DNA of 64,000 nt, from positions 1-64,000 of IMG/VR virus record IMGVR_UViG_3300028654_000010. The stretch is one strand, 5' to 3'. A program made the position numbers and the translations under genes. The notes beneath the pieces are model-generated. The model had not been told where the DNA came from. It searched no databases and worked only from the letters and a program-made list of their open reading frames with translations. The stretch's first letter is position 1, and each line of letters begins with the position of its first letter. Source of the DNA: a virus. Shown here piece after piece: positions 13,977 through 38,857 of the stretch.

Positions 13977-14002
13977 CTGTGTCTTTCTATCGTTGGAATT
14001 CG

Positions 14003-20726: not shown

Positions 20727-21269
20727 TCAGACGTTGCCGCCCGAATCACCGAGTTTCTGTGGCACGCCAATGGTGTTGTTCTGTGAAACTGCCGGGCCAT
20801 CGGTCGTCGGATCACGGACATCAGCAACGCTGGGTGCAGGATTGATGTCAGCCGCTGCAATCTTGGGATCGACGTCTTTGTCAACGCCGTCTGTGCGACC
20901 CGGCCCAGGCGAAGTGATGTCAGGGGTGTACGGGTTGGCGGGGTCGCCGGCCTTCGTCCACTTGACGGTGCTGACGTCGGGTGAAGAGTTGGGAGGATTG
21001 CCGATGTTGTAGTTGAACGACAAGTCAACGCCCGACGGGAACATGCCGAGGTCACCGGCCTGCACGCCACCGGTGGGTTGAAGACCCCCAACGCCGTTGG
21101 TAACCTTGGCCGTCGCCGAGGCCTGTGCTAGCGCTTGCGCGCCCTTCTCATCACCGTTGGCAACCTGCGTGGCGAGGGGCCCACCAGGAAACAACTTAGA
21201 GAGCAGCGCGTGTGCAACCGTGGCTGCACCGCCGCCAACGTAACTCGTGTACCTTCCTAACACACCCAT
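20727..21269 (-). CDS. hypothetical head-block protein, 180 residues
   Basis: The N-terminal 70 residues are alanine- and glycine-rich and helical (GGGAATVAHALLSKLFPGG; EKGAQALAQASATAKVTNG). The rest is proline/asparagine-rich and probably extended (SFNYNIGNPPNSSPDVSTVK). No known domain. Its place between gene 21 and the scaffold suggests an internal head or decoration protein. Confidence 0.65.
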   Translation of the reverse strand: MGVLGRYTSYVGGGAATVAHALLSKLFPGGPLATQVANGDEKGAQALAQASATAKVTNGVGGLQPTGGVQAGDLGMFPSGVDLSFNYNIGNPPNSSPDVSTVKWTKAGDPANPYTPDITSPGPGRTDGVDKDVDPKIAAADINPAPSVADVRDPTTDGPAVSQNNTIGVPQKLGDSGGNV

Positions 21270-21289
21270 GACATCACCCTCTTCTCAGA

Positions 21290-21562
21290 TCAGACCCGAG
21301 CAATGAGAGCTTTTTGCGCGCGCTTGCGGGCTTCTTGCACTCGTGCCAGTCGCTTGACCAAGCGCCCTTCTTCAATCTTGAGCGCCTTCATGAAGTCAAT
21401 GTGCTTGTCGAGAGAATCGGCAAACTCATCTGCGTCGGTCTCTTTGGTGTCGTCAGCTTTCTTCTCGACATCCTCCGGAGGACCGAATTTGCCGACTTCC
21501 TCCTCAATGATTCGCTTGAGCAGGGCAGGGGTCAATTTGACCGACTTAACGTTCGTCTTCAT
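21290..21562 (-). CDS. small helical head-block protein with LR-helix propeptide
   Basis: 90 residues from the ATG at 21562 (GGAAAGGTG ribosome site); a GTG three codons upstream is less likely. The N-terminus is KSVKLTPALLKRIIEEEVGK, one of several copies of a short helix with an I-x-E site. The remainder is a charged helix (DSLDKHIDFMKALKIEEGRL; VKRLARVQEARKRAQKALIA). It sits in the T4 gp67/gp68-like region and may be a prohead core protein. Confidence 0.65.
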   Translation of the reverse strand: MKTNVKSVKLTPALLKRIIEEEVGKFGPPEDVEKKADDTKETDADEFADSLDKHIDFMKALKIEEGRLVKRLARVQEARKRAQKALIARV

Positions 21563-21588
21563 TGCTAGCACCTTTCCGTGGTATGCAG

Positions 21589-21600
21589 CTAAATATGCCC
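21589..21600 (-). promoter_or_regulatory. GGGCATATTTAG late-promoter-like element
   Basis: Core TATTTA at 21595-21590, 27 bases before the ATG at 21562. Confidence 0.55.
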
Positions 21601-21610
21601 ATCGATGATT

Positions 21611-22072
21611 TTACGCTGGCTTCTTGACGACGGCGAAGGCCAAGTTGGCCCAACGACCCGCCGTCTCCTCACCAAAGACGTCTTCAGGGTTACCATTGAA
21701 CTGTTCTTGCAACATCGGTGCCGAGCCCGCGGACGCTCCGGTGTCACCGTGCGCCTGCATCGTCGGCAGCGTCGTCATCGCGGTGTCCTTAAAGATGTCA
21801 GCCATGATCGGATTACCCCCCGACTCTCGTTTGATCGTCTCCTGCATTGTCGCTGACACTTGCGGAGCCCGACCACGTAGGGGAGTATCAAGGCGCGGAT
21901 CAAAAGCACGCTTGACGTTGGTTGGAGCCACACGACGGCGAGCTTCACCGATGGGCGATGCTGCCGCACGAGGACCCGGTGCAATCGATTGCACATTACC
22001 CAAGCCCTCGCTGAGGATCTCAACCAACAGTTCTTTGATGACCGACTTCAATTCACTCCTAGATAGCGCCAT
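21611..22072 (-). CDS. hypothetical head-block protein with LR-helix propeptide
   Basis: 153 residues from the ATG at 22072. A start at 22093 would overlap the deformylase gene by 14 bases and lacks a ribosome site. It begins MALSRSELKSVIKELLVEIL, another copy of the short N-terminal helix with an I-x-E site. The rest has RGRAPQVSATMQETIKRESG and a conserved-looking end (EDVFGEETAGRWANLAF). Homologous endings (RWANLAF-type) are shared with 18580-20670 (RWATLAGITKR). Confidence 0.65.
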   Translation of the reverse strand: MALSRSELKSVIKELLVEILSEGLGNVQSIAPGPRAAASPIGEARRRVAPTNVKRAFDPRLDTPLRGRAPQVSATMQETIKRESGGNPIMADIFKDTAMTTLPTMQAHGDTGASAGSAPMLQEQFNGNPEDVFGEETAGRWANLAFAVVKKPA

Positions 22073-22079
22073 GTTCAAT

Positions 22080-22574
22080 TCACCTGTTCCCACGTAGGAT
22101 CTTAAGGGCCATGGTCCGTGCTAACGGCTGGACCCGGTCTAACACCGTAATGCCATTGATGTGATCGACCTCGTGCTGCACAATCTGTGACGGCAGGCCC
22201 GCAAACCGCACGTTCTTTGCAGCACCTGCCAAATCAAAGTACTCAACATCGATGGCACGTGCTCGCATGACCTTCAGGCGCACACCAGGCAACGACAGAC
22301 AACCTTCTTCTACCATCTCTACTTCAGGCGACCGCCAGGTGACCCTTGGATTGATCAGCACCTGCAATTGGTTGGTTGCATCACCCGCTGATGGATCAAT
22401 TAACGTGATGCACTCGGTGACACCAACTTGGGGTGCTGCTAGCCCCACTCCATGAAAGGTGTACATCGCCTCGGTCATCTGTTCGACGAACGCGATCAAC
22501 GCGGCATCGAATTGGGTGACCGAACGACAAGCTTGTGCGAGCGCAGAATTTGGGTACTTGACGATGTCAAGCAT
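22080..22574 (-). CDS. def: peptide deformylase
   Basis: 164 residues from MLDIVKYP at 22574; this ATG overlaps the TAA of the preceding gene (TAATG). All three metal-site motifs are present: GVGLAAPQVG (motif 1, ~42-51), EEGCLSLPG (motif 2 with the metal-binding Cys) and QHEVDHINGI (motif 3, HExxH). It should therefore be active in removing N-formyl groups from nascent proteins. Phage deformylases are known from cyanophages and vibriophages, but here the gene lies in the head-assembly operon between gp21 and the scaffold, which suggests a link to virion protein synthesis at late times. Confidence 0.93.
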   Translation of the reverse strand: MLDIVKYPNSALAQACRSVTQFDAALIAFVEQMTEAMYTFHGVGLAAPQVGVTECITLIDPSAGDATNQLQVLINPRVTWRSPEVEMVEEGCLSLPGVRLKVMRARAIDVEYFDLAGAAKNVRFAGLPSQIVQHEVDHINGITVLDRVQPLARTMALKILRGNR

Positions 22575-22954
22575 TAGCCCACGCCGGACCACCCGGCGCT
22601 ACCTGACAACGACGGCATGCTGTTGGCGGGGATCGTCGTCAGACCGGCGGCAATGCTGTACTGTAGAGAACCCGACGCCTCAGCCCTGATCCACACGCTG
22701 GCCACGCGGTACTCCAGATTGACGTAGGTGTTGCCGGGGATGAGGATCTTGTTGTTACCATTGCTGCCATTGAGACTGAAGGCCAACGACAGCGAGCTAG
22801 TCGACGAGTTGGTGATGGCAATGAACCGGGTGATGAACGGAAAGTCAATCTCTGCCGAACCACTCGTCGCGAGCGATGACGTCACCCACGGTAAAGCCGC
22901 CGACTGGTACTCGGGCGAGAAACTAAATCCGGCAGGGGGAGTTCCTAGGGGCAC
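22574..22954 (-). CDS. small beta-rich virion-type protein
   Basis: 126 residues with a GTG start three bases after the gp21 stop. The sequence is Ser/Asn/Gly-rich with alternating hydrophobics (AEIDFPFITRFIAITNSSTS; KILIPGNTYVNLEYRVASVW), pointing to a beta-sandwich. Its place next to gene 21 and its composition suggest a capsid decoration or fibre protein. No named family. Confidence 0.65.
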   Translation of the reverse strand: MPLGTPPAGFSFSPEYQSAALPWVTSSLATSGSAEIDFPFITRFIAITNSSTSSLSLAFSLNGSNGNNKILIPGNTYVNLEYRVASVWIRAEASGSLQYSIAAGLTTIPANSMPSLSGSAGWSGVG

Positions 22955-22957
22955 TGA

Positions 22958-23632
22958 TCACCTCACATCCTTGGTTGGCACGCCACGCAACAAAATCTCG
23001 TTCAAGACGCGGTCAATCCGATCTGACTTGCTGAAGAGCTGCTTCAATTCGGCAGACGTGATCTCTTTTCCTTCGGGAATCATGAATGCTTGAGGCGTTG
23101 ACGGTTCGCTCACAACGTCCCAGCAGATCAGCTGAAAATCGTCCTGGACGACTTGGTACTCGCCCTGCTTCCGCGTTGAACCCACGCCGCGGCTGGAGAT
23201 GCCGATCTTGACGCCTGAATCCACCAACCCTTTGAGAATGGCGCCCGACGGCGTTTTGTCAAGGACTTCAATGGTGCCCAAGACAGTGCCGTTCTCGATG
23301 TAGGCCTCGCGCACGATGTGCGAAACGTTCTTCAAGTTGATGACGGAGCTGTCGGGGTGATCGAGCTCACCGGTGGCACGGTTCTCGAGAATGAACTTCT
23401 GATAGTTGCGGCACTCACGATCGAGAATCGCGAGCGGGTAAATCCTGCCGTTCTGGTTGAGAGTGTCTGCCTTCTGCAGGATACCCTTCATCATGATCTT
23501 CTTGGTCGCCGGCACTTCGACCTTGTTGCCCTTGGTGTCCTCAGTGATCCGAGCCGGTACGTCTTCAGTGACTACTTTATAGTCAAAGACGTCGTAACTC
23601 TCAAGGCGCCTCAAGTTGGCTGTATTAGTCAT
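22958..23632 (-). CDS. 21: prohead core protease, T4 gp21-like
   Basis: 224 residues (T4 gp21 is 212). Key motifs of the S77/U9 family: NGRIYPLAIL, GELDHPDSSV (catalytic His) and GISSRGVGS (catalytic Ser), followed by WDVVSEPSTPQAFMIPE. It cleaves scaffold and capsid proteins after (I/L)-x-E during prohead maturation. ATGA overlap with the upstream gene and GGAGGGA ribosome site. All expected catalytic residues are present. Confidence 0.93.
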   Translation of the reverse strand: MTNTANLRRLESYDVFDYKVVTEDVPARITEDTKGNKVEVPATKKIMMKGILQKADTLNQNGRIYPLAILDRECRNYQKFILENRATGELDHPDSSVINLKNVSHIVREAYIENGTVLGTIEVLDKTPSGAILKGLVDSGVKIGISSRGVGSTRKQGEYQVVQDDFQLICWDVVSEPSTPQAFMIPEGKEITSAELKQLFSKSDRIDRVLNEILLRGVPTKDVR

Positions 23633-24495
23633 GTTCCCTCCGAAGTGAGTTCAGTGCTGAGCTTGGTGTACAGCATGAACCGCGTCACCGCATCATCATC
23701 AACCACGTCGAACGTCTCACCCGCGAGGTGATTGTAGACTTCTTCGAGCTTCTTGTTGATGTGAACGTCGTCTGGATTATTGCGTTGATAGAGCTCAATC
23801 TCCATGACCAGTCCCTGGCGGACTTCCTGAAGTTTGAGCTTGATTGAGGCAGGATCGTCGTTGGCCGTCGAGAAGGCGTAGGCACGGAGCAGTTGCTTTT
23901 GAGTATCGCTGAGCGCGTGAGCGTACTTCTCATTGAGGCGCTTCATCATCATCTTCATCAACAATCGACTGTGCCCGGGACTGTCATCTGAGACCACGGT
24001 GTCGACGGGCGTTGCCTTCTCAGTCACCAACCACTTCAACAATTGATCCTCATACTGAGCGACCCTACCTAGGTCACTGTCGGCAACACGCCAGTCGTTC
24101 AACAGCGTCTGTACCGTTGCATACATCTTGTACTCATTGACCTGGTGATCGTAGAAGTCGCTATCGTTGATCGCGCGATTGATGGTGTTGATCAATACGG
24201 ACTTTTCACGATCGAGCTTTGCAACATCGTGCGAACGAGCTGCAAGCTTGGCTTCTTGAATGATCGACGCGGCAATGGCCTCGCTCGACACCGTCGTCCT
24301 GAGCAGAGAGTTGATGAGACGAAATTCTCGGTACAGCTCACAGCCCGGCTTAAAGTGCCGACGAATCACCTTGAGTGCCACGTTCGAGCGTTTGGTGTTG
24401 TTCTCAACCAACGCACGCGAGATGCTGTAGACCAAAAACTCGTAGAGGAGCCCGGTATTTCGGCGTTTGTTGTGTGAATTTGACCTAGGCTTCAT
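23629..24495 (-). CDS. conserved head-block protein between gp20 and gp21
   Basis: 288 residues, helical throughout. It starts MKPRSNSHNKRRNTGLLYEF, followed by LVYSISRALVENN and VIRRHFKPGCELYREFRLIN. I recognise this arrangement (RRNTGLLYEFLV...HFKPG.ELY.EFRL) as a conserved unknown of T4-like environmental phages, always beside gp20/gp21. ATGA overlaps on both sides show strict co-translation with the portal and protease. A role in prohead core or portal assembly is inferred from position. Confidence 0.75.
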   Translation of the reverse strand: MKPRSNSHNKRRNTGLLYEFLVYSISRALVENNTKRSNVALKVIRRHFKPGCELYREFRLINSLLRTTVSSEAIAASIIQEAKLAARSHDVAKLDREKSVLINTINRAINDSDFYDHQVNEYKMYATVQTLLNDWRVADSDLGRVAQYEDQLLKWLVTEKATPVDTVVSDDSPGHSRLLMKMMMKRLNEKYAHALSDTQKQLLRAYAFSTANDDPASIKLKLQEVRQGLVMEIELYQRNNPDDVHINKKLEEVYNHLAGETFDVVDDDAVTRFMLYTKLSTELTSEGT

Positions 24496-27400
24496 TCGTC
24501 GTCCTCCCCGGTGGGATCACCAATAAGTACTGCGCTCTCGTTGAGCTGACCGCGACTCGGCGTAACGTCAGCATCAATGTCAAGATCGAACATGGATTGA
24601 CCTCCTCCATCGATCTCATCCTGCACATCACGGCCCTCATTCAACGTAGCTCGAGTAACCTCACCATCGGCAGTGAACTTAGCTGTCATTCTCCTCATTG
24701 TTGACATAATGTCAGCAGACAGTCTCGTCCGGCGCCCGATGGGAGGCGAACTACCCTCAGCGAATGGATTCGTCACGACTGACTTCAACCAATCATTGTC
24801 GTAGGGATCTTCCATCGCGGGATTGTCATTCGACGTCATCTTCTGAAAGTCAGGCATGTGCGTCTTGCTGGCACCGTGGTTGCGGTGGCGACTGTTGTTA
24901 TAGAGGGCCTTTTGGAGCTGCGACTTGGGCTTGATGGGTTTGCTATCATCGCTGTCACCCAACTTCAATGCGAATGACTCATTGTCATTGTCGTCGCCGC
25001 TGGTCAACAATTGAGCGCCGGGCTCAACCTCTTCTTCGGGTTCTTCACCCGCATTCTCTTCAGGTGGAGCCTTCTCTTCGCCACCACCTGCTTCTTCGGC
25101 GCCGCCACCTTCATCGCCACCACCAGCGCCGGCGTCTCCAAAGAGGTCATCGTCACCCCCGCCTCCACCTGCACCCCCGCCTCCACCGTCGTCAGCACCC
25201 TCACCTGCCTCGATGGCATCATCGATCTTCTTTTCAGCCAACCGTTCCTCGTCGATGGCCTCCATCTGCTCGTCGTTCAATCCCCAGATCTCCTTGCGAA
25301 TGAACTTCTTGCTGGCCATACCCTCGGGGGCCGAACCCGCAATTTCAAACTTGGCGCGCCACAGCTCCAACTTCTGCTGTTGAGCGACGGTCGACGGATT
25401 GCTGAGGCGTAGGGTGAAGTTCTGCAGGTCCTCATTGTCAAAGCCATGAGCGTACAGGTGAATGATGGCCAACTTATTGAGCTCGGCCATCATCGTCTTC
25501 TGAATGACGGAGATGGTGCGGGAGAACCGAATGTCCTCCTGTGCCAGCGTCGCCTTGCTGCTCAACATCTCATCGTAGCCCAAGTAGGCCCGCGGGATCT
25601 TCAGTGCAGCGAACAGCTTCTTCTGAATGTAGGCGACGTCCTCAACTGCGGCAGTGTTGACACCACCCGCCAACGTGTCGATCTTAGTGCCGCTCTCGCC
25701 ACCACGCACCGGGATGAAAAAGTCCTCCTCAACGGACATCGGATTATAGCGTAGGTCGACGCGGCCAGTTTGGTTGTCAACGACCGGCGTCGTCCTCATC
25801 TGTTGACGTTGCTGTTCGATGTAATTGTTGACTTCAGTCGCGGGCACGTTGGCCACGTCAATGTAGAAAACGCGGCGCTCGGGGGCACGCACGACGCGGT
25901 AGACCAACATGGCGTCCTCGATCAGGATGAGCTGGCGCCAGATGCGGCGCGCGGGCTCAATGATCGACGAGCCATATGGGAGGAACATGTCATTGCCCAA
26001 CAAGCGGAAGTGGGTCACCTCCCAATTTTCGAGCGTCCTGTTGCCCAACGTCACCCAACGATAACGGACGGCGAAGGGATCTTCACGGTCATAGTTCTCT
26101 TCGCGCTCGACCTCGTTGACCGGGATCGGGAAAGCGTTGACGACGCCGTACTCGGGCGACACGTCATTGTAGAGGAAGAAGTCGCCGTACTTGCAGAGGT
26201 TACGAGCCCACGAGCGCAAGTTGAATTCAATGTTGAGGACGTTGTAGAAGAGGTCCTCGAGCAGCTCCTTGATCTTCTCATTGTCGGAGTAGACGTGGAG
26301 GCACATGCCCTTCTCATCTGCGGCGACGGTCTCATCGGCATAGATGTCCATCGCGGCAGCGATCTCAGGGGTGTTGTGTGAGATGACGCTGTCGGTTGCA
26401 AAGTTCTTGTAACCATCGACTGTGAGGTCATAGAGGGGAATGATGCCGACGTACTCGACAGAAACGACCTTGCAGTTCTGGTAAGATGCGCCGAACTCAC
26501 TAAACTTCTTGAAGCCGTTCTGCGCAAGGCGAGAGATAATCGTATTCTTGTTGACACCTAGCTTTTCAGTCAGACGTGGCAAGGTGAGGCCTGGTTCGAA
26601 AGCATCACAGATCTGTTTGAACGTGAGATCGCTGCCGTTTGAACCCTTGGGACGACCTCCTTGACGAATTTGTTTGTAGGTAGTCAACCCACATTCCTTC
26701 CTCACATCATTCCACGTTCGATTAATGCGCCGATTGAGGAACTTATCGAGGACATTGACGGTACAACCTAACTTCACCGCCATCGAACGTTTGGTGTCTG
26801 CCTCAACAATCAAGTGTTTGATCGTGTCAAGCGACAGTTCACGCGTTAGCTTTGAGGCCTGATGAATGACAACCTCAGGTATACCGTGACCATATGCCGC
26901 TGTAAACGCTTCGAACGTAGGAAACCCATTGGCAGTGAGCCGCTCATGAACCAAGAACGTAGTGACATTAAGGGCCCTGGACACTTTGGTGATGTCGAAG
27001 CCAACCTTCTCAGCGATCTGAATGATTCTAGAGAACGTGACATCGTTGCGGCGCGATGGTGCATTGTTACGCATCCACTCTGCGTGCTGTTTTTTGAACC
27101 TTTCGATCCATTCTTGATTCTCTGGCGCCCACTTCACCCCATTGTTGAGCGCTGCATGGTACGAGCTGTGGTCGCTCTTCGTCATGATACGCAAGTTCTC
27201 AGGCCTGTTGTCGGTCTTGACGAAGTTGATGTGGTGAACGCACTCATCCTCAGTCAACTCTCGTCCGGCCACCCACTCAGATACCAGCTGGTGTTCCTTC
27301 GTCCACCCGCGAAAACGTCCATCCATCGTGTAGACCCACGAGTACCCCTTAGTGCCCTCTTCTGCGTTCGCAAACAGATCCTTGCGGTAGAATGGCATCA

Positions 27401-27935
27401 TCGCATCGCCAGGCTGTAAGTCCTCAGTCTTGCGATACGTACCATCGCGCAACATCAAGCGGTGTTCGGGGCTCAACGTCAGCGACTTGCCGTTATCGAA
27501 CGTCACCTTCCACGCATGGTCAACACACGTTTGGCGCGCCTGCTTACCCCATGCAGGTACAATGCGCTTCTGCTCATGGTCATAAGAGTAAACGATGAAC
27601 GTCTTGTTGGGATCTGCTTCACACTCCGCAGCCAACTCGGCGATTGTCTTGAACCCATCAGGTTGGGCAATCAAGGTCGCACCGTCAACACTATATTCCA
27701 TCTCTTGAAAATCTTGATACCTCATTAATCGTTCCGAGAGATTGTATGCGTTGCTCGTGATCGTCGCATACGTGGGAGACAACGACTTCTGAAAGAGCAG
27801 GGTACCCGAGCTCTTCGTCTTATCGGCGACAGCAATGCTCGTGTCGAGGGCACGTATCTTCCTCTTCACGACTGGGCCACTCTTGAAAAGTCGACTTAAC
27901 CTTCTAAAGAGGCTTCTAGGTTCGCGTTTCGCCAT
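24492..27935 (-). CDS. 20: portal vertex protein, T4 gp20-like, interrupted by an intein
   Basis: 1147 residues as translated; ~707 after splicing. Exteins: MAKREPRSLF at the start, NLSERLMRYQDFQEMEY (to residue 81), then TPEIAAAMDIYADETVAADE (from 522) and the gp20 body (RAPERRVFYIDVANVPATEV; GYDEMLSSKATLAQEDIRFS). The C-terminal ~200 residues are an acidic, Gly-rich extension absent from T4 (GGGGGAGGGGGDDDLFGD). The dodecameric portal is the DNA entry channel of the head and the terminase dock. The intein sits exactly inside the highly conserved MEYTPEIA motif. AGAGGGG ribosome site before the ATG. Confidence 0.93.
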   Translation of the reverse strand: MAKREPRSLFRRLSRLFKSGPVVKRKIRALDTSIAVADKTKSSGTLLFQKSLSPTYATITSNAYNLSERLMRYQDFQEMEYSVDGATLIAQPDGFKTIAELAAECEADPNKTFIVYSYDHEQKRIVPAWGKQARQTCVDHAWKVTFDNGKSLTLSPEHRLMLRDGTYRKTEDLQPGDAMMPFYRKDLFANAEEGTKGYSWVYTMDGRFRGWTKEHQLVSEWVAGRELTEDECVHHINFVKTDNRPENLRIMTKSDHSSYHAALNNGVKWAPENQEWIERFKKQHAEWMRNNAPSRRNDVTFSRIIQIAEKVGFDITKVSRALNVTTFLVHERLTANGFPTFEAFTAAYGHGIPEVVIHQASKLTRELSLDTIKHLIVEADTKRSMAVKLGCTVNVLDKFLNRRINRTWNDVRKECGLTTYKQIRQGGRPKGSNGSDLTFKQICDAFEPGLTLPRLTEKLGVNKNTIISRLAQNGFKKFSEFGASYQNCKVVSVEYVGIIPLYDLTVDGYKNFATDSVISHNTPEIAAAMDIYADETVAADEKGMCLHVYSDNEKIKELLEDLFYNVLNIEFNLRSWARNLCKYGDFFLYNDVSPEYGVVNAFPIPVNEVEREENYDREDPFAVRYRWVTLGNRTLENWEVTHFRLLGNDMFLPYGSSIIEPARRIWRQLILIEDAMLVYRVVRAPERRVFYIDVANVPATEVNNYIEQQRQQMRTTPVVDNQTGRVDLRYNPMSVEEDFFIPVRGGESGTKIDTLAGGVNTAAVEDVAYIQKKLFAALKIPRAYLGYDEMLSSKATLAQEDIRFSRTISVIQKTMMAELNKLAIIHLYAHGFDNEDLQNFTLRLSNPSTVAQQQKLELWRAKFEIAGSAPEGMASKKFIRKEIWGLNDEQMEAIDEERLAEKKIDDAIEAGEGADDGGGGGAGGGGGDDDLFGDAGAGGGDEGGGAEEAGGGEEKAPPEENAGEEPEEEVEPGAQLLTSGDDNDNESFALKLGDSDDSKPIKPKSQLQKALYNNSRHRNHGASKTHMPDFQKMTSNDNPAMEDPYDNDWLKSVVTNPFAEGSSPPIGRRTRLSADIMSTMRRMTAKFTADGEVTRATLNEGRDVQDEIDGGGQSMFDLDIDADVTPSRGQLNESAVLIGDPTGEDDE
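26373..27692 (-). mobile_element. portal-gene intein with HNH endonuclease
   Basis: 440 residues, Ser82 to Asn521 of the precursor. Block A begins SVDGATLIAQPDG (Ser at position 1 instead of Cys). Block B is LTLSPEHRLMLRDG. Block F is VVSVEYVGIIPLYDLTVDG, and block G is SVISHN followed by extein Thr522. The insert contains an HNH-type endonuclease (CVHHINFVKTDNRPENLRIM) and two or more helix-turn-helix repeats likely to read the target (LTLPRLTEKLGVNKNTIISR). All residues needed for splicing appear present, so it should be removed from the protein. Confidence 0.92.
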
Positions 27936-27994
27936 TCTTCTGTGCCCCTCTAGTCAAGAGAGAGCTCCCTTCGTTCGATCCTACATCACAAACG

Positions 27995-28300
27995 TCACGC
28001 CTGCGGCCACCAAAACATCTTCTTCTCAGGATCCCAGACCTCGTGTTCATAGGCATCCTTCATGTGAAGTTGACCCGTACCGTCAATGAAGAAGTAGGAG
28101 TCACAGGCGTCCATGTAGTGCTGCAGATGTTTGGGTGTCTTGATGTCACGACCATTGAGGTCCTGCATGTCACCATTCAACAGGTACTTGTATGCGTCAG
28201 GAAACTGCTGCTTCACCTGTGCCAGCGTCATAATCTTAGGGTGATCCTCAATCTCTTCCTTGATCAATCGCCTCAACCGCTCAACGCTGACACGAATCAC
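27995..28300 (-). CDS. small protein with LR-helix propeptide
   Basis: 101 residues, GTG start overlapping the upstream stop. The N-terminus MIRVSVERLRRLIKEEIEDH is the clearest copy of the recurring short helix and contains L-I-K-E. The body (FPDAYKYLLNGDMQDLNGRD; SYFFIDGTGQLHMKDAYEHE) has no recognised domain. It lies between terminase and portal, where T4 has the tail sheath and tube genes. Confidence 0.7.
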   Translation of the reverse strand: MIRVSVERLRRLIKEEIEDHPKIMTLAQVKQQFPDAYKYLLNGDMQDLNGRDIKTPKHLQHYMDACDSYFFIDGTGQLHMKDAYEHEVWDPEKKMFWWPQA

Positions 28301-28932
28301 GGCACCACCTCGCCGAGCCCATCATATTGATCCGTCTCCTTCACGTACAGCGCATCCGCACTTGAACCCACCGCATAGCCCCCGTCGTGGTGGTAAGCCG
28401 TCCACTCGAAGCCATCCTTGACGTCGACGAACTTCAGGTCAACCTGCGTCGGATCCTCGTTGTCGGTGTGCTCGCCGTTCTTGTCGACCCAACCCACGAA
28501 GTTGCTCTGCGTGCGGTCTCGACCCGCCTTGACGAGGTAGGTGTTGCCCACTTCGAGGTGCTGCCAGTTCTGCTCCGTTACCTTCTCGAGCTTGCCGTCG
28601 CCGCCCGTGGCCTCCTTCAAGGCACCTTCCTTCTTCACGGCCTTTAGCGACACCTTCTTGGGCTCCACCTTGACCCTGGCGACGTAGGAGCCCGGGGTAT
28701 TGACCATGTCCTCCAGCACCTTCTCAATGTTGCCCAAGTGCGGCGTCAGCGCATTGACGGCGGCAGGCGACGCCTTCTCCTTGAACTTCTCGATCGCCTT
28801 CAACAGGTTCGAGGCACCGCCGACGATGGCCGCGGCGCTGGCGTGGTCGACGGCTTCAGTGACCTGCGAGGTCTCTTCGTTGATCAGGTGCCGCAGTCTC
28901 AGTAGGCCGATCTTGGGAGTTTGGGTCGTCAT
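28297..28932 (-). CDS. protein with LR-helix propeptide, 211 residues
   Basis: The start at 28932 is chosen from AGAAGG six bases upstream. N-terminal MTTQTPKIGLLRLRHLINEE carries the short helix with an I-N-E site. A helical segment (ASNLLKAIEKFKEKASPAAV) and a beta-like C-terminal half follow (NTYLVKAGRDRTQSNFVGWV; DLKFVDVKDGFEWTAYHHDG). Unknown function. A weak TACCTA version of the promoter element lies upstream (AATACCTATG). Confidence 0.7.
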   Translation of the reverse strand: MTTQTPKIGLLRLRHLINEETSQVTEAVDHASAAAIVGGASNLLKAIEKFKEKASPAAVNALTPHLGNIEKVLEDMVNTPGSYVARVKVEPKKVSLKAVKKEGALKEATGGDGKLEKVTEQNWQHLEVGNTYLVKAGRDRTQSNFVGWVDKNGEHTDNEDPTQVDLKFVDVKDGFEWTAYHHDGGYAVGSSADALYVKETDQYDGLGEVVP

Positions 28933-28969
28933 GGGCATCCTTCTGCAATCATAGGTATTCGCCACCCGT

Positions 28970-31810
28970 TCATCTAGTCAACCAGCGAAAGTCACTGACG
29001 TCTCTTTGGTACGGATTACGTGGTGCCACCTGCGACGCGTCGCGTGGTCGATAGACACTCTGTGCATTCATGCCCTTGATGTTGGGATTGACCAAAGGCT
29101 GTGCCTCGTTGACGCCGCCGGGCATCTGATTGATGTCCCGAACGTGGACGCGGGTCGCATTGAGGATAGCGTACGACATGGCGACGGCCTGTTCACTGAG
29201 GCCATTGCTGCCCTCGACCAACCAACAACCAATGGCGAGGCTCATGATCAAGTCATCGAAGCTGTCCTTGCCGGCCATGGGCTTGTTGCCGTTCCACACG
29301 AAGGCCTGCAATTGATCATAGAGGCGCTGTGAGTACGTCTTCAACGTCTTGTTGCGAATCATCTCCTCCAGCTTGGCCAGGATCTGCACCCGTGACTTCT
29401 GGTTAGTCGGGAAACCCGGCAGCTCCTCAGAGTTGGTGGGCACGTAATTGAAGGGGTCGCCGCCGTTGCTGGTGTAGTACAGCTTCTTGTAGCCCAGCGC
29501 ATCGCGGAGTTTGACGTTGACGAAGTAGCCAAAGGTGTTGTTCTCGGGCACCAATAGGGCATCGTTGTACTTGCGGCCCCACTCGTTCAACATGTCGGCC
29601 AGTTTCTCGGGCGGCACCTTGCCCATGTACTCGGCGGCCACTTCGCAGTCACCCGCATCGATGATGTGAAAGGCCGAATAATCACGTGCATCGCCCCTCG
29701 ACACGTCGGCGCTGATGACGTAGGTGTGACCAGCAATGGGTGGGCTCCAGACCCAGATGTTGCGATCAAAGCCCTCCTTCGACGCAGGTTGCATGATCTG
29801 CAACTTTAGGTCATCGAGGTCACCGGGTTGTAGGAAGGTGTCACCCGACGTGATGAAGTCGCAATTGTGAAGAACTGCAGATTGAGCAACAAATGAATTG
29901 TCATCGGCCACACTGATATCATAGACGGTGTAACCCCCATCGACATCACGAAGGTGCGATATATCCTTCAATGAGTGCTGACCAACAAAGTACTCACCAA
30001 TGAGACGCGTCCTTGATCCGGGCTTGTACAATTGTCCGCGTTCGAGCAATTCACGGTACGTCGTCCCACCTGCCTGAAACTCGAGATACCACATATCATG
30101 GTGCTTTGGGTTCTTTTTACTACGTTCAACACGCCCGATCCGAGGATACAGACCAAACATGGTGTTGAGGGTACGTAATTGATACACCAACTTCGACGAA
30201 GTACTGAACGTGGATGTCTTCGTAGTGTGCTCGTGATTACCATCTCCCGCGTGATGCCCATACAATAGACCTTTGATAAACTCACGGCCACATGATAGAA
30301 CCCTATCAAGATCAAGATGTTTAATAGGAGCCGTTTGACCCATGACAAACGATCTGACAAGCGCACCAACATGTTTATTGTGTGTCCACAGACGACAACC
30401 ATTTGCAATCTCTGATGGAGACAACGTCGTTCGACAACCCAACTTCTCGAGAAAATCAACGCACCAACGAGCGTGTGTCTCCATCTCATCAATGTGAAAC
30501 CCCATGTCAAGCCCACCCCGTGCATTACACCCCTCAGCCAAGTACAATCCTACAAACATGCCTAAGTCAAAGTCAACAGGCACATGACGTTTAGTACTAC
30601 CCCATTGCTTCACATAGCGGCACGTGTCAGGCGTTACATCGACTGATGGGTAAAGCGTCGACAAATCAATCGACGTCAAGCGTTCAGTGGGTTCATCAGG
30701 CCTAAACACTGGTACTAGCGCGTTGAGAATTCGATCCGTGGTCTTACGAGTACCGGCAATTGTCGTAGCCTCAATCCACGATGGCTCACACGCATTCTGT
30801 TCAATCCATTGAAGTGACGTGATCTGATTGGCACGAAAACGGTATGACAACATGGGATGATTGCCAGTCAAGACGAACTTACACTGACGACTACCTGGTG
30901 AACTGACCTCATACAGTTCCTCGCCGTCTTTTACAAGCCTACTATTTACCCGGGTGACAGGACGAAACCTACCAACGTGCGTCATGACCAAGTCGCCGAT
31001 GTGCAACTCTTCTGCCATCTTGTACCCATCAGGCGTCACAATCTTGGTATCACCGCCCACGCACAAGAACTCCTGAGCGACCTTACGCCTCGACAGCGAT
31101 CTGCTCTCCTTCACAAACCACGCCTGATCGTGTTCCGGGTGCACATCCCACATCAGCCTAATGGGATTGAAGTCATTGAGGCCCGCCTCGGCCTCGACCC
31201 ACAGGCGGTAGTACTGGCCACCGACACCATTGGGCGTCGACAAGATGATGGCACTACCTCCCGTCGAGAAGGTGGGTGCCAGTCCTGTCCAGATCTCCTC
31301 AAAGTCACGGATGAAGGCAGCCTCATCAACGATCAGCAGTGACAAGGCCTCCGATCGCCCGGCATCGTCGGACGTCGGAATGGCGGTGATCGTCGAGCCA
31401 TTGCTGAAGGCGATGGCCTGCTTGGTGGGCTCAAACTTGGGTAGCAACAGCCATGGGGGCAGGCTCTGCAACATGACCCTGATCTTCTTGATGAAGTTCA
31501 TGGCCGTGGGTAGCTTGGTCGCAATGACGAGGACATTCTTGTCCTTGTGAAAGATCGCCAGCCACAGCGAGTATGCCGCGCTGATCGTCGATAGTCCCAA
31601 CTGCCGTGACTTCAGGACGATGTTGAGGCGGTGTTCTTTGAAGTCATTGATGCAGTCGTCCTGAAACGGGTAGGTCTCAAACGGGATCGTCCCCCTCTTC
31701 GGGTGCTGAATTTTGACGTAGGTCTTGATGAAGTAGATGGGATCCTTACCACACTTCAGGATCTCTTGCACCTGTTGAGGCTTCGACAGGCCTAGATGAG
31801 GTTCACTCAT
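28970..31810 (-). CDS. 17: terminase large subunit, T4 gp17-like, interrupted by an intein
   Basis: 946 residues from the ATG at 31810 (a GTG one codon earlier is possible); ~546 after splicing. Walker A is SRQLGLST (~68-75). Walker B is LLIVDEAAF (~158-166). The nuclease domain is TYVISADVSRGDARDYSAFH with the catalytic Asp, then VPENNTFGYFV. The N-terminal adenine-binding region is FETYPFQDDCINDF. gp17 pumps DNA into the prohead and cuts concatemers. The intein splits VAQEFL from CDFITSGDTFLQPG, close to the ATPase-nuclease junction. The start overlaps the previous stop (TGATG). Confidence 0.95.
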   Translation of the reverse strand: MSEPHLGLSKPQQVQEILKCGKDPIYFIKTYVKIQHPKRGTIPFETYPFQDDCINDFKEHRLNIVLKSRQLGLSTISAAYSLWLAIFHKDKNVLVIATKLPTAMNFIKKIRVMLQSLPPWLLLPKFEPTKQAIAFSNGSTITAIPTSDDAGRSEALSLLIVDEAAFIRDFEEIWTGLAPTFSTGGSAIILSTPNGVGGQYYRLWVEAEAGLNDFNPIRLMWDVHPEHDQAWFVKESRSLSRRKVAQEFLCVGGDTKIVTPDGYKMAEELHIGDLVMTHVGRFRPVTRVNSRLVKDGEELYEVSSPGSRQCKFVLTGNHPMLSYRFRANQITSLQWIEQNACEPSWIEATTIAGTRKTTDRILNALVPVFRPDEPTERLTSIDLSTLYPSVDVTPDTCRYVKQWGSTKRHVPVDFDLGMFVGLYLAEGCNARGGLDMGFHIDEMETHARWCVDFLEKLGCRTTLSPSEIANGCRLWTHNKHVGALVRSFVMGQTAPIKHLDLDRVLSCGREFIKGLLYGHHAGDGNHEHTTKTSTFSTSSKLVYQLRTLNTMFGLYPRIGRVERSKKNPKHHDMWYLEFQAGGTTYRELLERGQLYKPGSRTRLIGEYFVGQHSLKDISHLRDVDGGYTVYDISVADDNSFVAQSAVLHNCDFITSGDTFLQPGDLDDLKLQIMQPASKEGFDRNIWVWSPPIAGHTYVISADVSRGDARDYSAFHIIDAGDCEVAAEYMGKVPPEKLADMLNEWGRKYNDALLVPENNTFGYFVNVKLRDALGYKKLYYTSNGGDPFNYVPTNSEELPGFPTNQKSRVQILAKLEEMIRNKTLKTYSQRLYDQLQAFVWNGNKPMAGKDSFDDLIMSLAIGCWLVEGSNGLSEQAVAMSYAILNATRVHVRDINQMPGGVNEAQPLVNPNIKGMNAQSVYRPRDASQVAPRNPYQRDVSDFRWLTR
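29864..31063 (-). mobile_element. terminase-gene intein with LAGLIDADG endonuclease
   Basis: 400 residues beginning CVGGDTKIVTPDGYKMAEEL and ending YDISVADDNSFVAQSAVLHN, with extein Cys next. Block B is FVLTGNHPMLSY. Two LAGLIDADG-type helices are visible: LGMFVGLYLAEGCNARGG and FIKGLLYGHHAGDGNH. All canonical splice residues (Cys1, His-Asn, Cys+1) are intact. It is a different class from the portal intein (HNH), so the two arrived independently. Confidence 0.93.
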
Positions 31811-32190
31811 CACCCGATCTCGTACACCGTCTTGCGCCTGTAATAGGCACTTCGGCGGGGGTTATGAACGTTGTAGTTGGTGATCTCAAGGCTGTCTTCG
31901 CTCGACAACTCTTTGGTCGACAGTGACGCATCGGCCAATTCCTTGTAATTGGCCTTGACCACCTTCAAGACCTCGCTGGTCACCGCCTTTGATTCCTCGG
32001 CATAGCGCCGTTTCATCTCAAGTGATTCCCTCTCGGTACCAAAATTGACGATAGCGGCGTACGATGTCATCAGCCGATCAGGTCCCAACAGCGTCACCTT
32101 GACAGAGTATCCTGCCGTCTTGGGTGTCGATGAACGGCCCCACGTCGTGTCGAACGACTGTTGAAGAGCTGCGTAATCAATGTCTGCCAT
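31810..32190 (-). CDS. conserved hypothetical protein before terminase, 126 residues
   Basis: MADIDYAALQQSFDTTWGRS, then YSVKVTLLGPDRLMTSYAAI, then long helices (SEVLKVVKANYKELADASLS), and a basic C-terminus (NPRRSAYYRRKTVYEIG). It sits where T4 has the small terminase gene 16, but the sequence is not clearly gp16-like; helices plus a basic tail would be compatible with it. Good GAGGAG ribosome site. Confidence 0.65.
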   Translation of the reverse strand: MADIDYAALQQSFDTTWGRSSTPKTAGYSVKVTLLGPDRLMTSYAAIVNFGTERESLEMKRRYAEESKAVTSEVLKVVKANYKELADASLSTKELSSEDSLEITNYNVHNPRRSAYYRRKTVYEIG

Positions 32191-32210
32191 GAGAAGGTTG
32201 CTCCTCGGCC

Positions 32211-32220
32211 TAAATATGGC
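32211..32220 (-). promoter_or_regulatory. GCCATATTTA late-promoter-like element
   Basis: Core TATTTA at 32216-32211, flanked as CCATATTTAGG, 20 bases before the ATG at 32190. It is placed to drive the terminase-portal-protease operon. Confidence 0.6.
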
Positions 32221-32232
32221 CGTTGCACAGGA

Positions 32233-32535
32233 CTAACGCAGTTCAAGGACAAGTGATAGCGGTGGGCGATCAACTTCAACCCCTTGCACCTGTTCTGCTG
32301 ATGGTCGCCAACCGTCACGCCAGGCCTGTCGACGTGGATGAGCCCACATCATGGCACAGCGCTCACAGCACCCAAATTCACGGTACGCACGATCATCATC
32401 CTGCGACCGCATCAGGTGATCACAGATCGGACACGCCAGCGGCGTCACGGGTGAGGCATCGACCGGCACGATGACGACAAAGTCACCGGGTCGATCGTCG
32501 ATCAGTCTGTCTCGGAGGTACGGTCGCCATGCCAC
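32233..32535 (-). CDS. small zinc-ribbon protein
   Basis: 100 residues. ACPICDHLMRSQDD and EFGCCERCAMMWAHPR give a CxxC...CxxC zinc ribbon. The C-terminal end is hydrophobic (DRPPLSLVLELR). It overlaps the end of the gp46-like gene by 34 bases. Ribbons of this type occur in many T4-like phages with unknown role; nucleic acid or protein contact is likely. Confidence 0.75.
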   Translation of the reverse strand: MAWRPYLRDRLIDDRPGDFVVIVPVDASPVTPLACPICDHLMRSQDDDRAYREFGCCERCAMMWAHPRRQAWRDGWRPSAEQVQGVEVDRPPLSLVLELR

Positions 32536-35123: not shown

Positions 35124-35767
35124 CCGATCACCTCGGCTTCCGGGTAGTTGCCAATGTCGGCGGCATCGATCTCCAGCTCCACGTCGCGGCCTGCTAAGAA
35201 TTGGTGAGTGTGGATGTCCCCCAACATTGCAAAGTCCCAACCCTTGAAGAATTCAACCGTGGTGCCTTCCTCAATCAACCAGTTGGTGTCGGTCGTCGCT
35301 CCCCAGATCGGGCCGTGGTAACAGGCGATGTTGACCTTACCCGGTATGGGCTTGACCTTGTCCCAATTCTCCTCGTCAAACAGGCTAAAGACACCCCACA
35401 CATAACCAGGGGCAAACTCGTAGGTGCCACTGTGCTTGTAGAGGTGCACGCGTGGATTGTTGAGTGCGGCAATGATGGGAGAGATGGCGTCTTGGCGCGA
35501 ACGGTTGCTGCAGTTGAGGTCGTGGTTACCGAGCATCACGTGGACGGGAGCAACTTCAGCCAACGCACTGAACCACCAGCACATGAACTCAATGCACTCA
35601 GGCGACATACCAGAAGTCTTAGTGTGAAAACTATCGCCCCCAATGAAGATGTGATCGACCTTCTGTTCCCTACACCGCTCGATGAAGGTAGTAAAGATCT
35701 GCTTATACTCTGCGTGGCGACTTAAATTACGGACGTGGACATCAGCCGTGTGGGCAATCCTTAGCAT
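35120..35767 (-). CDS. 47: gp47/Mre11-like nuclease, catalytic part only
   Basis: 215 residues against 339 in T4 gp47. The five phosphodiesterase motifs can be followed: HTADVHV (metal), FIGGDSFH, LGNHDLNCSN, ACYHGPIW and MLGDIHTHQF. The protein then stops at PEAEVIG. The strand and capping region that normally follow (SPVQQNYGE...) are found at the start of the downstream gp46-like protein in another frame. It should assemble with that protein as the SbcCD/Mre11-Rad50-type complex. No independent promoter is obvious downstream; GTGA coupling implies equal synthesis. Confidence 0.88.
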   Translation of the reverse strand: MLRIAHTADVHVRNLSRHAEYKQIFTTFIERCREQKVDHIFIGGDSFHTKTSGMSPECIEFMCWWFSALAEVAPVHVMLGNHDLNCSNRSRQDAISPIIAALNNPRVHLYKHSGTYEFAPGYVWGVFSLFDEENWDKVKPIPGKVNIACYHGPIWGATTDTNWLIEEGTTVEFFKGWDFAMLGDIHTHQFLAGRDVELEIDAADIGNYPEAEVIG

Positions 35768-35837
35768 GCAGGCACTCTCTATAGATCAGTACAGCACCGC
35801 AAAGGATCTGTACAATGGATGTTGGCGGCGGGCACCC

Positions 35838-36824
35838 TCACAACCTGATCTGTGCCGCTACGTCTAACCGATCCATGAAAGCATCGTCCCAACTAAAGGG
35901 CCGCGCTGTCACCAACGCCTGCCTGAAGTCACGCTTGGCCATGTCACCCGGGTCGGTCGGCACCGTGACGATCCTCACCGGCACGTCGAACTCCGCCAGC
36001 TTGCGGGCCAACTTCGGCGTCTTCTTCACCCGCATGTCGGCGTCGAGGGCCAAGGCGACGGGCGTCTTGTTGACGATGATGGCATTGAACAGCGCGCTGG
36101 TCTCATTGAGGTCACTGCCCAATAAGGGCACTGCGTTGTCAGGGCACTTCATCAGGTCGAACGGGCCCTCGCACAGCACCAGCTCCTGTGACCAGTCGAT
36201 GTTGAGCTCATTGAAGATGATCTGGAGCTTGTACCCAGGCGGCACATCGGGGCCGTCATACTTGGGCTTGCGAAACTTGTCGACGGCGCGGCCCACGAAG
36301 TAGTTGAGGGCACCGCGCGCATCGAATGATGGCACTAAGACGCGGCGCTTCCACCTGAAGTCTGAGCTGTAGCCCAACTTGAAGTACCACATGTCACGTT
36401 GGGTGATGCCGCGTTGGGTCAAGTACCTGCGCAGCGCCAGCACATCGGTGTCTCGGGACGTCGACGTCGCCAGCAACCTGAAGTCATCAGGAAGTTCTAC
36501 GCCTGAGGGCTCATCGACGATGACAATGTCAAGGCACCGGTGATCCCGCTTGTCGGCAGGCATGAACCGATCGCGATACTCGAGCAATTGGTCACGGGTA
36601 CCGTACTTCCTGACCAACGACCACAGGCTGTGACCGCGCGCGCCGCACGTCCAACAGTGCCACTGATCATCCTCTAATAGGATGGCCAGCTTCTTCTTCG
36701 ACACGTCCTTGGGTGCACAGACCGGGCAGCGCACGTCGAAATTGCGGCCATTGCGTGCCAGGCGCCCGAGACCGAAGACGCTTTCGATGAACTTGACGCG
36801 ATCGGTCACGGAGACGACGGGCAC
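35838..36824 (-). CDS. 61: DNA primase, DnaG/gp61-like
   Basis: 328 residues, GTG start. N-terminal CHC2-type zinc finger: DVRCPVCAPKDVS and DDQWHCWTCGARGHS. The catalytic core reads WYFKLGYSSDFRWKRRVLVP, and a TOPRIM domain follows with VLCEGPFDLMKC (Glu) and ALALDADMRVKK (DxD). It makes RNA primers for lagging-strand synthesis with the phage helicase. Size agrees with T4 gp61 (342). It is grouped with recombination genes (gp46/47, resolvase). Confidence 0.93.
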   Translation of the reverse strand: MPVVSVTDRVKFIESVFGLGRLARNGRNFDVRCPVCAPKDVSKKKLAILLEDDQWHCWTCGARGHSLWSLVRKYGTRDQLLEYRDRFMPADKRDHRCLDIVIVDEPSGVELPDDFRLLATSTSRDTDVLALRRYLTQRGITQRDMWYFKLGYSSDFRWKRRVLVPSFDARGALNYFVGRAVDKFRKPKYDGPDVPPGYKLQIIFNELNIDWSQELVLCEGPFDLMKCPDNAVPLLGSDLNETSALFNAIIVNKTPVALALDADMRVKKTPKLARKLAEFDVPVRIVTVPTDPGDMAKRDFRQALVTARPFSWDDAFMDRLDVAAQIRL

Positions 36825-36856
36825 GAGCCGATCGTAACCCAGATCAGGTCAATGGT

Positions 36857-37546
36857 TCAAGCCGGGAAGGGTTGGTGCTTGCGGCACATCGTCAGGCCCT
36901 TCATGGGCTTGCCCGGACACCCAGGCTCGCACGGGTAGGCACACCCGCCCGGGGGTTTTGGCACCTTCTTGGGCTTCTTGGTCACCACGATGGGCCCACA
37001 GATTGCCGCTGCTCGAGCGATGACGTAGGCGTCGGTCGCGTCGCGGCTCCAGAGTACCTGCTTGCCAGTCTTGGTCACGGGCCACTTGACGTCATGGAGG
37101 TCGTGCTCACTCATGTACGAGAAAACTTGCTCCTTTTGGGGCCCGCCGATCGCCGTCTTCTGGAGCTTGACGCCACATAATTTGCGGGCGTGGGCGGCAC
37201 CGATGTACTCGGGATCGACACCAAAGACATCACGGGCGATGTACGACGTGATGCCATTGAACCGCATCAGCGTCGAGATCGTCTGCGCCGACGACATTCC
37301 CGCGCGAAAGCCCATCAATGGCTCTTCGACGACGACACGGTCAATGCAGATGTGATATTGAGCAGACAATTCGGCACTGATGACTTTGAATGCACGCTGC
37401 ACCACATCTGTTTTCTCCCACAGCGTCTTACATTTCTTAAACTCAATTCGATCGAGCATGTAGTGGTCACCCGCCGACGCGCCACTCTCTATGACACAAA
37501 ATCCTGTGCAGCTGGTGCTTACATCAAGTCCCAAGATCACGCTCAT
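36857..37546 (-). CDS. RuvC-like Holliday junction resolvase
   Basis: 229 residues. The RNase H-fold acidic residues fit: LGLDVSTSCTGFCVIES (first Asp), VVVEEPLMGFRAGMSS (Glu-Glu) and WSRDATDAYVIARAA (final Asp pair). After residue ~195 there is a cysteine-rich tail (CAYPCEPGCPG, TMCRKH) likely to bind zinc. T4 itself uses the unrelated endonuclease VII (gp49), so this phage has a different resolvase type. It resolves branched DNA before packaging; function inferred from fold. Confidence 0.82.
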   Translation of the reverse strand: MSVILGLDVSTSCTGFCVIESGASAGDHYMLDRIEFKKCKTLWEKTDVVQRAFKVISAELSAQYHICIDRVVVEEPLMGFRAGMSSAQTISTLMRFNGITSYIARDVFGVDPEYIGAAHARKLCGVKLQKTAIGGPQKEQVFSYMSEHDLHDVKWPVTKTGKQVLWSRDATDAYVIARAAAICGPIVVTKKPKKVPKPPGGCAYPCEPGCPGKPMKGLTMCRKHQPFPA

Positions 37547-37581
37547 GGCTGATCATGGTCTTCACGCGACGCCTGTAAAGG

Positions 37582-38202
37582 TCACCCTCCCGTGTCGAGC
37601 AACACCAACCTGCCCTTGTCATCGAGACCCCAGTTGTCATCATGAAGTTCCATGGGATTAATCTTGCAGGCCTTGACGGTGTCGTACAGTGCCCGGTACC
37701 ACTCATTAGTGTGATACAGGCGTTCATGGGCACGAAGAGCTTCGGCGTCATCAATCCCGAGTTCATACCCCTCCGCTTGATGAATGCTCGTCTCAATGAT
37801 GAACATTAGGTCACTAGTGTCAGACATGCCGACGGTCGCCTTCAGGGCGCGCCCGAGGGAAGCACCCACCACGGGCTTGACCTTGTTGGAGATGACCCAC
37901 TGGTAGTTGGGCGCCTTCACCAACACGTGGACGATGGGAGCATTAGGCGCTGCACACTTGCGTCGAGAGGCCTCGTCCCTGTTCTGCTCAATGCCATTGG
38001 CGTTGTACGCCCACTTGATGACCCACCCACGGCCCACGTCGTAGACCGTCCTGCCCGCGCCCGACCCCAGCACCTTGGCGTGAAAGTCGAGGTATTCCAC
38101 AGCGTCGTCCTCGGTCAATCCTCGGAAGACCTTGAGATCGAACGGCTGACGCGCTTCGACGAGCAAGTTGACATAGTCACGTAGGAGATTGCTCACCCCC
38201 AT
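37582..38202 (-). CDS. protein-kinase-like fold protein with propeptide-type N-terminus
   Basis: 206 residues from the ATG at 38202 (GGGTGGG ribosome site). The kinase pattern is visible: glycine loop LGSGAGRTVYDVG, strand-3 lysine WVIKWAYN, NRDEAS as possible helix C, hinge-like LMFIIETSI, catalytic loop NPMELHDDNWGL, and LVLLDTGG in place of DFG. The usual HRD is replaced by LHDDN. The N-terminus (MGVSNLLRDYVNLLVEARQP) resembles the recurring propeptide helix with L-V-E. It may be an active small kinase or a pseudokinase; the substrate is unknown. Confidence 0.62.
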   Translation of the reverse strand: MGVSNLLRDYVNLLVEARQPFDLKVFRGLTEDDAVEYLDFHAKVLGSGAGRTVYDVGRGWVIKWAYNANGIEQNRDEASRRKCAAPNAPIVHVLVKAPNYQWVISNKVKPVVGASLGRALKATVGMSDTSDLMFIIETSIHQAEGYELGIDDAEALRAHERLYHTNEWYRALYDTVKACKINPMELHDDNWGLDDKGRLVLLDTGG

Positions 38203-38232
38203 ACTTATCCCACCCAATGGCCCGAGACTTCA

Positions 38233-38634
38233 CTACTTCAATAGGCCAAGTTGCTTCAATTCAACCTCGGTGATGACGACCAGTGCGACGCCGTGGGCCC
38301 GAGCCCAGTCACCCGCCGCCAACAACTTCTTGGCCACCTTGACCTGGTGCACCCGTCTAGCGGGTTTCACCTCGACGAGTTCGATGTGGCCGTCGGCGTA
38401 GGTGACGAGGAAGTCGGGGTGATAGTTGCGCAGCTTGCCCGTCTTCTTGTTGCTGACGTACGGGATGACGATCGACTCATAGGCCCAGGTGATGACGTCG
38501 GGCGACGCGTCGAGGTACTGCATGTACGAACTTTCCCAACCCGAGCGGTATTTACACGTCAGGCCCGTCTTGGGAGACGCGTGAACGCCGGTATGGTAGT
38601 GGCCCTTACGCTTACGCTTACGCTTTTTTGCCAC
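38233..38634 (-). CDS. TnsA-like nuclease, probable gp4-type head completion protein
   Basis: 133 residues from a GTG at 38634; an ATG at 38700 would give 155 residues but overlaps the upstream gene by 83 bases. The N-terminus is very basic (KKRKRKRKGHYHTG). Core: CKYRSGWESSYMQYLDASPD, VITWAYESIVIPYVSN, RNYHPDFLVTYADGHIELVE and VKP. The E...PD...E-x-K set is that of PD-(D/E)XK nucleases (TnsA-like). I recall the same YRS.WE...M.Y.D..P.V..W..E...IPY pattern in gp4 head-completion proteins of T4-like phages. Likely acts at the packaged head; start uncertain. Confidence 0.68.
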   Translation of the reverse strand: MAKKRKRKRKGHYHTGVHASPKTGLTCKYRSGWESSYMQYLDASPDVITWAYESIVIPYVSNKKTGKLRNYHPDFLVTYADGHIELVEVKPARRVHQVKVAKKLLAAGDWARAHGVALVVITEVELKQLGLLK

Positions 38635-38857
38635 GGATGGGCCTGAACCTTTCACAGGTGCAGTCTTCACCCGTCGCACCTGCAATGCCGGTATCATCAT
38701 TGAAACACGGGTGTGGCGCGTCGCCGGCGTGGACGGCCAACGGGTGACCGCAGGTGCAGAGGCGCTCGAAGTTGGCCTCGTAGGAATACTGGCCCGTGCG
38801 CCGGTTGCGGTTGGCCTCGCCGATCAGTCGCTTGAGCTCGCCGAACCTAATACGCAT
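38618..38857 (-). CDS. cysteine-rich protein with LR-helix propeptide
   Basis: 79 residues. MRIRFGELKRLIGEANRNRR is the recurring N-terminal helix with L-I-G-E. The rest is a zinc-site pattern: LCTCGHPLAVHAG, PHPCFNDD and GEDCTCERFRP. C-x-C-G-H...H...C...C-x-C is similar to small RNA/ubiquitin-type ribbons, but no family is certain. A TATTTA element lies only four bases before the ATG, so the message may be leaderless. Confidence 0.7.
   Translation of the reverse strand: MRIRFGELKRLIGEANRNRRTGQYSYEANFERLCTCGHPLAVHAGDAPHPCFNDDTGIAGATGEDCTCERFRPIRGKKA

Follow-up and report, generated by a model that had tools for sequence, protein, structure and literature searches.

Otherwise unrelated proteins of an uncultured T4-like phage begin with a common short helix. 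This helix is probably a T4-style capsid-targeting propeptide, in a form specific to the clade to which the phage belongs. The window analysed here is bases 1-64000 of the 141,862-bp virus record IMGVR_UViG_3300028654_000010. An earlier note on this DNA had quoted seven related helices from small proteins, nearly all N-terminal, and read them as candidate capsid-targeting propeptides with a cleavage site of the form (I/L/V)-x-E. All seven helices are present, all on the minus strand, and six of the seven contain (I/L/V)-x-E, as claimed. The capsid-targeting reading is supported by an S77-family prohead protease encoded in the same cluster, the T4 spacing of the motif, its occurrence in 61 protein clusters, its near-absence from control phages, sites that are conserved or compensated, and untagged homologues whose first residues fall at the end of the tag. 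What was observed directly is the motif with its statistics, site pattern and modularity, and the fact that it goes with S77 phages. Proteins injected with phage DNA act ahead of phage gene expression and include counter-defence factors, such as T4 Ip1-3. They are hard to recognise because they have no common fold. With an address tag that can be read from sequence, candidate injected proteins of an environmental phage group can be listed directly from its genomes.

The tag was scored with a position-specific scoring matrix (PSSM) built over columns 2-16 of 34 aligned N-termini, taken from other phages only. All called genes of the record were scanned, and a score of at least 11 bits was counted as a match. 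Seven N-termini in the record matched, whereas shuffled N-termini would give 0.06; of 463 interior windows, 2 reached the same score. A hidden Markov model (HMM) from the same 34-sequence alignment gave five matches in the record. The search of the genome for more copies that the earlier note had suggested yielded two N-terminal tags beyond the window, at 129908-130411 (a (p)ppGpp/(p)ppApp-hydrolase-like protein) and 131814-132113 (a hypothetical protein).

The other five matches, at 19-34 bits, are quoted N-terminal helices recovered in the window by a matrix that had been built from other phages. The strongest is MKTNVKSVKLTPALLKRIIEE (21500..21562, minus strand, 34.5 bits), which opens a 90-aa core protein (21290-21562) with predicted cleavage after residue 21; a tagged orthologue is present in 8/8 clade genomes. 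Its neighbour, a 153-aa core protein (21611-22072), starts with MALSRSELKSVIKE (22031..22072, minus strand, 18.8 bits) and has orthologues in protease loci. A 101-aa protein with a GTG start (27995-28300) carries MIRVSVERLRRLIKE (28256..28300, minus strand, 32.8 bits). The 211-aa protein at 28297-28932, between the terminase and portal genes, carries MTTQTPKIGLLRLRHLINE (28876..28932, minus strand, 20.8 bits), and tagged relatives of it are found in other loci. Finally, MRIRFGELKRLIGE (38816..38857, minus strand, 20.7 bits) heads a 79-aa Cys/His-rich protein (38618-38857) with a possible zinc site; its non-tag part had no Pfam match.

The tag is widespread among relatives. A protease search led to 80 viral contigs, where several protein families per contig carry the motif. 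The PSSM was also run at 11 bits on seven more large contigs (G002, G003, G004, G006, G008, G011 and G013); some of the 34 seeds came from scanned contigs, and seeds matching the genome under scan were excluded. These relatives encode 6-21 tagged proteins per genome vs 0.06-0.30 expected. Together with the record, the eight genomes contain 100 tagged proteins among 1772 genes (108, or about 6%, at 9 bits). When the first 24 residues are removed, the 100 proteins form 61 sequence clusters that are otherwise unrelated, so that a short N-terminal sequence is common to unrelated proteins, as in the T4 capsid-targeting sequence (CTS). The clade consensus is MKITxxxLRxIIxEE, or roughly M-K-[IL]-[ST]-x3-L-[RK]-x-[IL]-[IV]-x-E-[EA], and in 60 of the 100 the conserved Leu is the eighth residue when counting starts at the closest Met upstream. 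Pfam scans of the cargo recognised few domains, and no cultured member of the clade was found. Two proteins, L097 2739-3371 (G003 102739-103371) and L119 12339-13265 (G013 192339-193265), have a second, internal tag copy; such double-tag proteins resemble two fused tagged proteins and might be cut apart.

To see how often the Glu itself is kept, tags were gathered with a matrix in which its column was not scored; Glu was still found there in 94 of 131 non-redundant tags, and Asp in 5. Among the 37 tags lacking Glu, 28 have an [ILVM]-x-E that ends within the next ten columns, vs a shuffled mean of 13.3 and a maximum of 22 in 2000 shuffles. The (I/L)-x-E expected at the end of a T4-type propeptide is therefore present, with V also used at P3. 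T4 gp21 cleaves after L/I-x-E, and in T4 IPIII residues 4 and 7 are mainly for targeting and residues 8 and 10 are required for processing; IPIII with Asp at position 10 is still targeted, but its processing is inhibited (PMC9026906). The clade spacing, h-x-x-h-[ILV]-x-E, is that of YQEFIAE in IPII and IPIII (which start MKTYQEFIAEA), INELLRE in gp24 (which starts MAKINELLRES) and FGSFLTE in gp23 (which contains FGSFLTEA). The clade's L-x-x-[IL]-[IV]-x-E aligns with YQEFIAE and INELLRE, so that the residues for targeting and for processing are spaced as in T4. Function does not require the sequence to resemble the T4 CTS recognisably, and no such resemblance was found; only the spacing pattern is shared. 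The clade tag would thus work like a T4 CTS, but we file it as a variant and not as the T4 CTS itself.

The enzyme presumed to process the tags is a prohead protease of the T4 gp21 type (Peptidase_S77; 22958..23632, minus strand), identified by Pfam (PF03420, E 9.2e-24) and by PHROG 207, head maturation protease (E 1.9e-44). The major capsid protein (MCP) offers a site of matching specificity. The gp23-type MCP gene of the window (16567-18516, minus strand; Pfam Gp23, E 1.7e-75) has a predicted 60-residue propeptide (18337..18516, minus strand) with the site V-L-R-E, followed by V-G-N. V-L-[KR]-E at about residue 60 occurs in every MCP listed from a set of 58 relatives; T4 gp23 loses a 65-residue propeptide. 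From this conservation of the sites we infer that the protease removes the propeptides.

The alarmone hydrolase gene, 129908-130411, illustrates the modularity of the tag. Its product contains an HD domain (HD_4, PF13328, E 3e-13) akin to that of hydrolases acting on (p)ppGpp or (p)ppApp, and the best solved-structure match, a (p)ppApp hydrolase (PDB 7smg, E 9.4e-22), begins at residue 19, directly after the tag. The alignment shows conserved His and His-Asp motifs and, downstream, an Asp motif. The enzyme would be expected to break down (p)ppGpp, the alarm signal of bacteria. An untagged homologue from Heliusvirales begins at the position that matches residue 20, and the homologues in L252-L255 open with MKRGEMLDKA in place of the tag; no S77 protease match was found in these records. 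Both this gene and 131814-132113 lie inside an array of 26 predicted tRNA genes (L005 1338-12541, about 121.8-133.0 kb of the record).

Some tagged proteins have a further sequence in common with the scaffold. Clade scaffolds end [ED]RWxxLAG[IL]xK (also written ERWxxLAGIxK), and the scaffolds of Flavobacterium phage immuto and of Mel-JY01 end similarly. The window encodes a 696-aa protein (18580-20670, minus strand) with the tail RWATLAGITKR (18583..18615, minus strand); it had no Pfam match, and we call it a gp22-like scaffold because of its position and conserved ends. Seven non-scaffold proteins in G002, G008 and G013 carry this tail as well, at 9-11 residues from the C-terminus; 7/7 are N-tagged. 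They do not represent seven independent events, because they perhaps form two families, one HAD-like and one containing DGHHRW. One other protein, G013 196257-197189, lacks an N-tag and has the tail motif 64 residues before its C-terminus. In the window, the core protein 21611-22072 combines its N-tag with the C-terminus GRWANLAFAVVKKPA, a variant of the scaffold tail. On N-tagged proteins the scaffold tail is likely a second core- or shell-binding signal.

Core binding, packaging, cleavage and injection are what we infer from these observations. The hydrophobic face of the helix would bind the prohead core (the scaffold), and a tagged protein so bound would be enclosed during shell formation. 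Cleavage by the S77 protease behind the Glu of [ILV]-x-E would next release the mature protein within the head, and the scaffold's own tail, found on some cargo of relatives, could add a second hold on core or shell. The tagged proteins near the head genes (21290-21562, 21611-22072 and possibly 28297-28932) are probably core components like T4 gp67 and gp68. Tagged proteins encoded elsewhere, such as the Cys-rich protein, the alarmone hydrolase and probably a kinase-like protein, are probably cargo injected with the DNA. We are evenly divided on a wider proposal, that this large uncultured T4-like clade uses two-signal delivery, with a cleavable N-terminal helix and, on some cargo, a C-tail copied from the scaffold, to pack as many as about 20 different proteins into each head, among them an alarmone hydrolase that would remove host (p)ppGpp at infection.

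The motif is short and many of its carriers are small, so it might reflect chance or composition, as one more case of short N-terminal amphipathic helices that would be common in small phage proteins. Near-zero counts in shuffles, interior windows and control phages refute this, and we give it practically no weight. The clade HMM at E <= 1 had no match in SPO1, N4, phiKZ, crAss001, HK97 or six lambdoid contigs; phage K had one, inside an 823-aa frame. The control set with an HK97-type protease consisted of lambdoid phages and was deduplicated because it was redundant; at 11 bits, 2 of its 1060 genes matched vs 0.52 expected. T4, KVP40, S-PM2, HTVC008M and DSL-LC02 also gave zero matches to the clade tag model, and the tag is therefore a clade form. 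The generic pattern h-x-x-h-[ILV]-x-E was counted in the first 24 residues and compared with shuffles. It gives z 4.6-9.5 in the eight clade genomes, 6.4 in immuto, 3.3 in T4 and 2.2 in Mel-JY01; the values for SPO1, N4 and the lambdoids are 0.5, -1.3 and -2.0. E. coli phage 4MG has z 2.8, but 7.6 of its 13 matches are expected from its own interior rate.

Two other explanations accept the helix as a prohead signal. The tagged proteins might all be scaffolding whose helix serves core binding or self-assembly; maturation would degrade or expel them, and none would be delivered to the host. In most loci several tagged families do sit among the genes for portal, protease and scaffold, and a tail in common with the scaffold speaks for core association. 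We nevertheless find this improbable: many of the 61 clusters are far from head genes, including an alarmone hydrolase family enzyme and HAD-like proteins, and the same device serves injected proteins in T4 (PMC12373910). Marginally less probable again is a helix that targets proteins to the prohead and stays uncut, with the Glu reflecting helix chemistry. It would account for the minority of tags without Glu and for C-terminal copies without a clear cleavage site, but not for the strong preference for Glu over Asp, the downstream compensation of absent sites or the same specificity at the MCP propeptide site.

Several points weigh against a cleaved capsid-targeting propeptide. In about 28% of tags the canonical column has a residue other than Glu. 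Shuffles lose helix periodicity, so amphipathic-helix structure could account for part of the [ILV]-x-E signal. Several of the records in which no S77 protease match was found are fragments. The gene calls come from our own heuristic, and the literature yielded no virion proteomics, mass spectrometry or N-terminal sequencing for a clade member. Cyanophage S-PM2 has a T4-like head and shows no generic N-terminal enrichment (z 1.0), so the tag rule is not universal; a rule for all S77 phages was rejected on this basis and on the lack of a clade-model match in T4, S-PM2, KVP40, HTVC008M and DSL-LC02.

Two of the quoted helices make weaker cases. The 206-aa kinase-like protein at 37582-38202 begins with NLLRDYVNLLVEAR, which fell below a PSSM match in the record scan; its tag is MGVSNLLRDYVNLLVE (38155..38202, minus strand). 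We treat it as a variant class because homologues in three phages, L075, L078 and G011, share the N-terminal pattern LL[RK]xY[VL]xx[LM]LxE (their N-termini are KLLKSYVRSMLLEM, KLLKRYVRSILLEM and TLLREYLDLMLEK), with the remainder of the protein only about 25% identical. The pattern also occurs at a few other clade N-termini. The best fold matches listed for the structure model are kinases and aminoglycoside phosphotransferases (E >= 1.3e-3); the model has a mean predicted local distance difference test (pLDDT) score of 59.5, no PDB sequence match was found, and with a variant tag the assignment is a low-confidence one. The other case is the C-terminal variant MGQLRSFVRRALVG. It is real, C-terminal and kept in two other genomes, but it lies at 11072-11266, outside the range of 20727-38857 given for it. 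There the helix copy RISMGQLRSFVRRALVG (11075..11125, minus strand, 16.2 bits) is part of a small acidic protein and has no (I/L/V)-x-E. Its counterparts, G003 96587 and G006 22441 (one a BLAST match, one syntenic), have the helix 17-18 residues before the C-terminus. It may be an uncleaved targeting helix, a weaker claim than that for the N-terminal tags.

The head genes of the window form a T4-type cluster, all on the minus strand, of terminase, gp20 portal, S77/gp21-type protease and gp23. The terminase gene (28970-31813) has a Hint-type (intein-type) domain inside it, and the portal gene (24492-27935) an intein with an HNH domain. A peptide deformylase gene (22080-22574; PF01327, E 2.2e-44) also lies within the cluster. 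Elsewhere in the window are a TnsA/endonuclease I-like protein (38233-38634), kept in 8/8 genomes examined, and a phage-encoded transfer-messenger RNA gene (14002-14368) with the predicted tag ALTNTWSRLIANDNGIADYALVA.

T-even internal proteins have already been found through their signal sequence (PMC12373910), so the kind of element is known. A description of the clade-specific tag sequence, its breadth of carriers or the second tail was not found in the literature searched, and a text search with the motif strings found nothing. The tag points to testable cargo, the tagged alarmone hydrolase, and to a scaffold-derived second signal; it might also serve as a peptide with which proteins of choice are loaded into phage heads. 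In the giant phages phiKZ and SPN3US, head proteins are likewise cut after x-x-E by a gp21-related protease, and a targeting role has been proposed for the propeptides (PMC5694885). They differ in that several propeptides exceed 100 residues and have no single short common helix, and in a specificity of A-x-E or S/A/G-x-E (PMC5694885); phiKZ has zero matches to the clade motif. The most similar cultured example we found is immuto, a phage of Flavobacterium sp. LMO8, which has an S77 protease, the scaffold tail RWQKLAGIIK, two matches to the clade tag model and 24 N-terminal matches to h-x-x-h-[ILV]-x-E vs 7.7 in shuffles. Unlike the clade, immuto often uses its own sub-consensus, MENFDLKKFLVEN, and has few clade-form copies; its MCP is only 44% identical over the aligned parts, and no virion proteome of it was found in the literature.

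The closest known system is the CTS of T4, carried by IPI-III and Alt and cleaved by gp21. The two have in common a short N-terminal propeptide on unrelated proteins, the h-x-x-h-[IL]-x-E spacing, an S77/gp21-type protease, expected cleavage after Glu, and carriers that include head core and small accessory proteins. They differ in sequence, MKTYQEFIAE in T4 against the longer, basic MKITxxxLRxIIxEE of the clade, whose tag model finds nothing in T4. Some clade genomes also have many more carriers (up to 21 at 11 bits), some with the scaffold C-tail. Just as two tagged genes here sit in a tRNA array, T4 ipI adjoins the T4 tRNA cluster.

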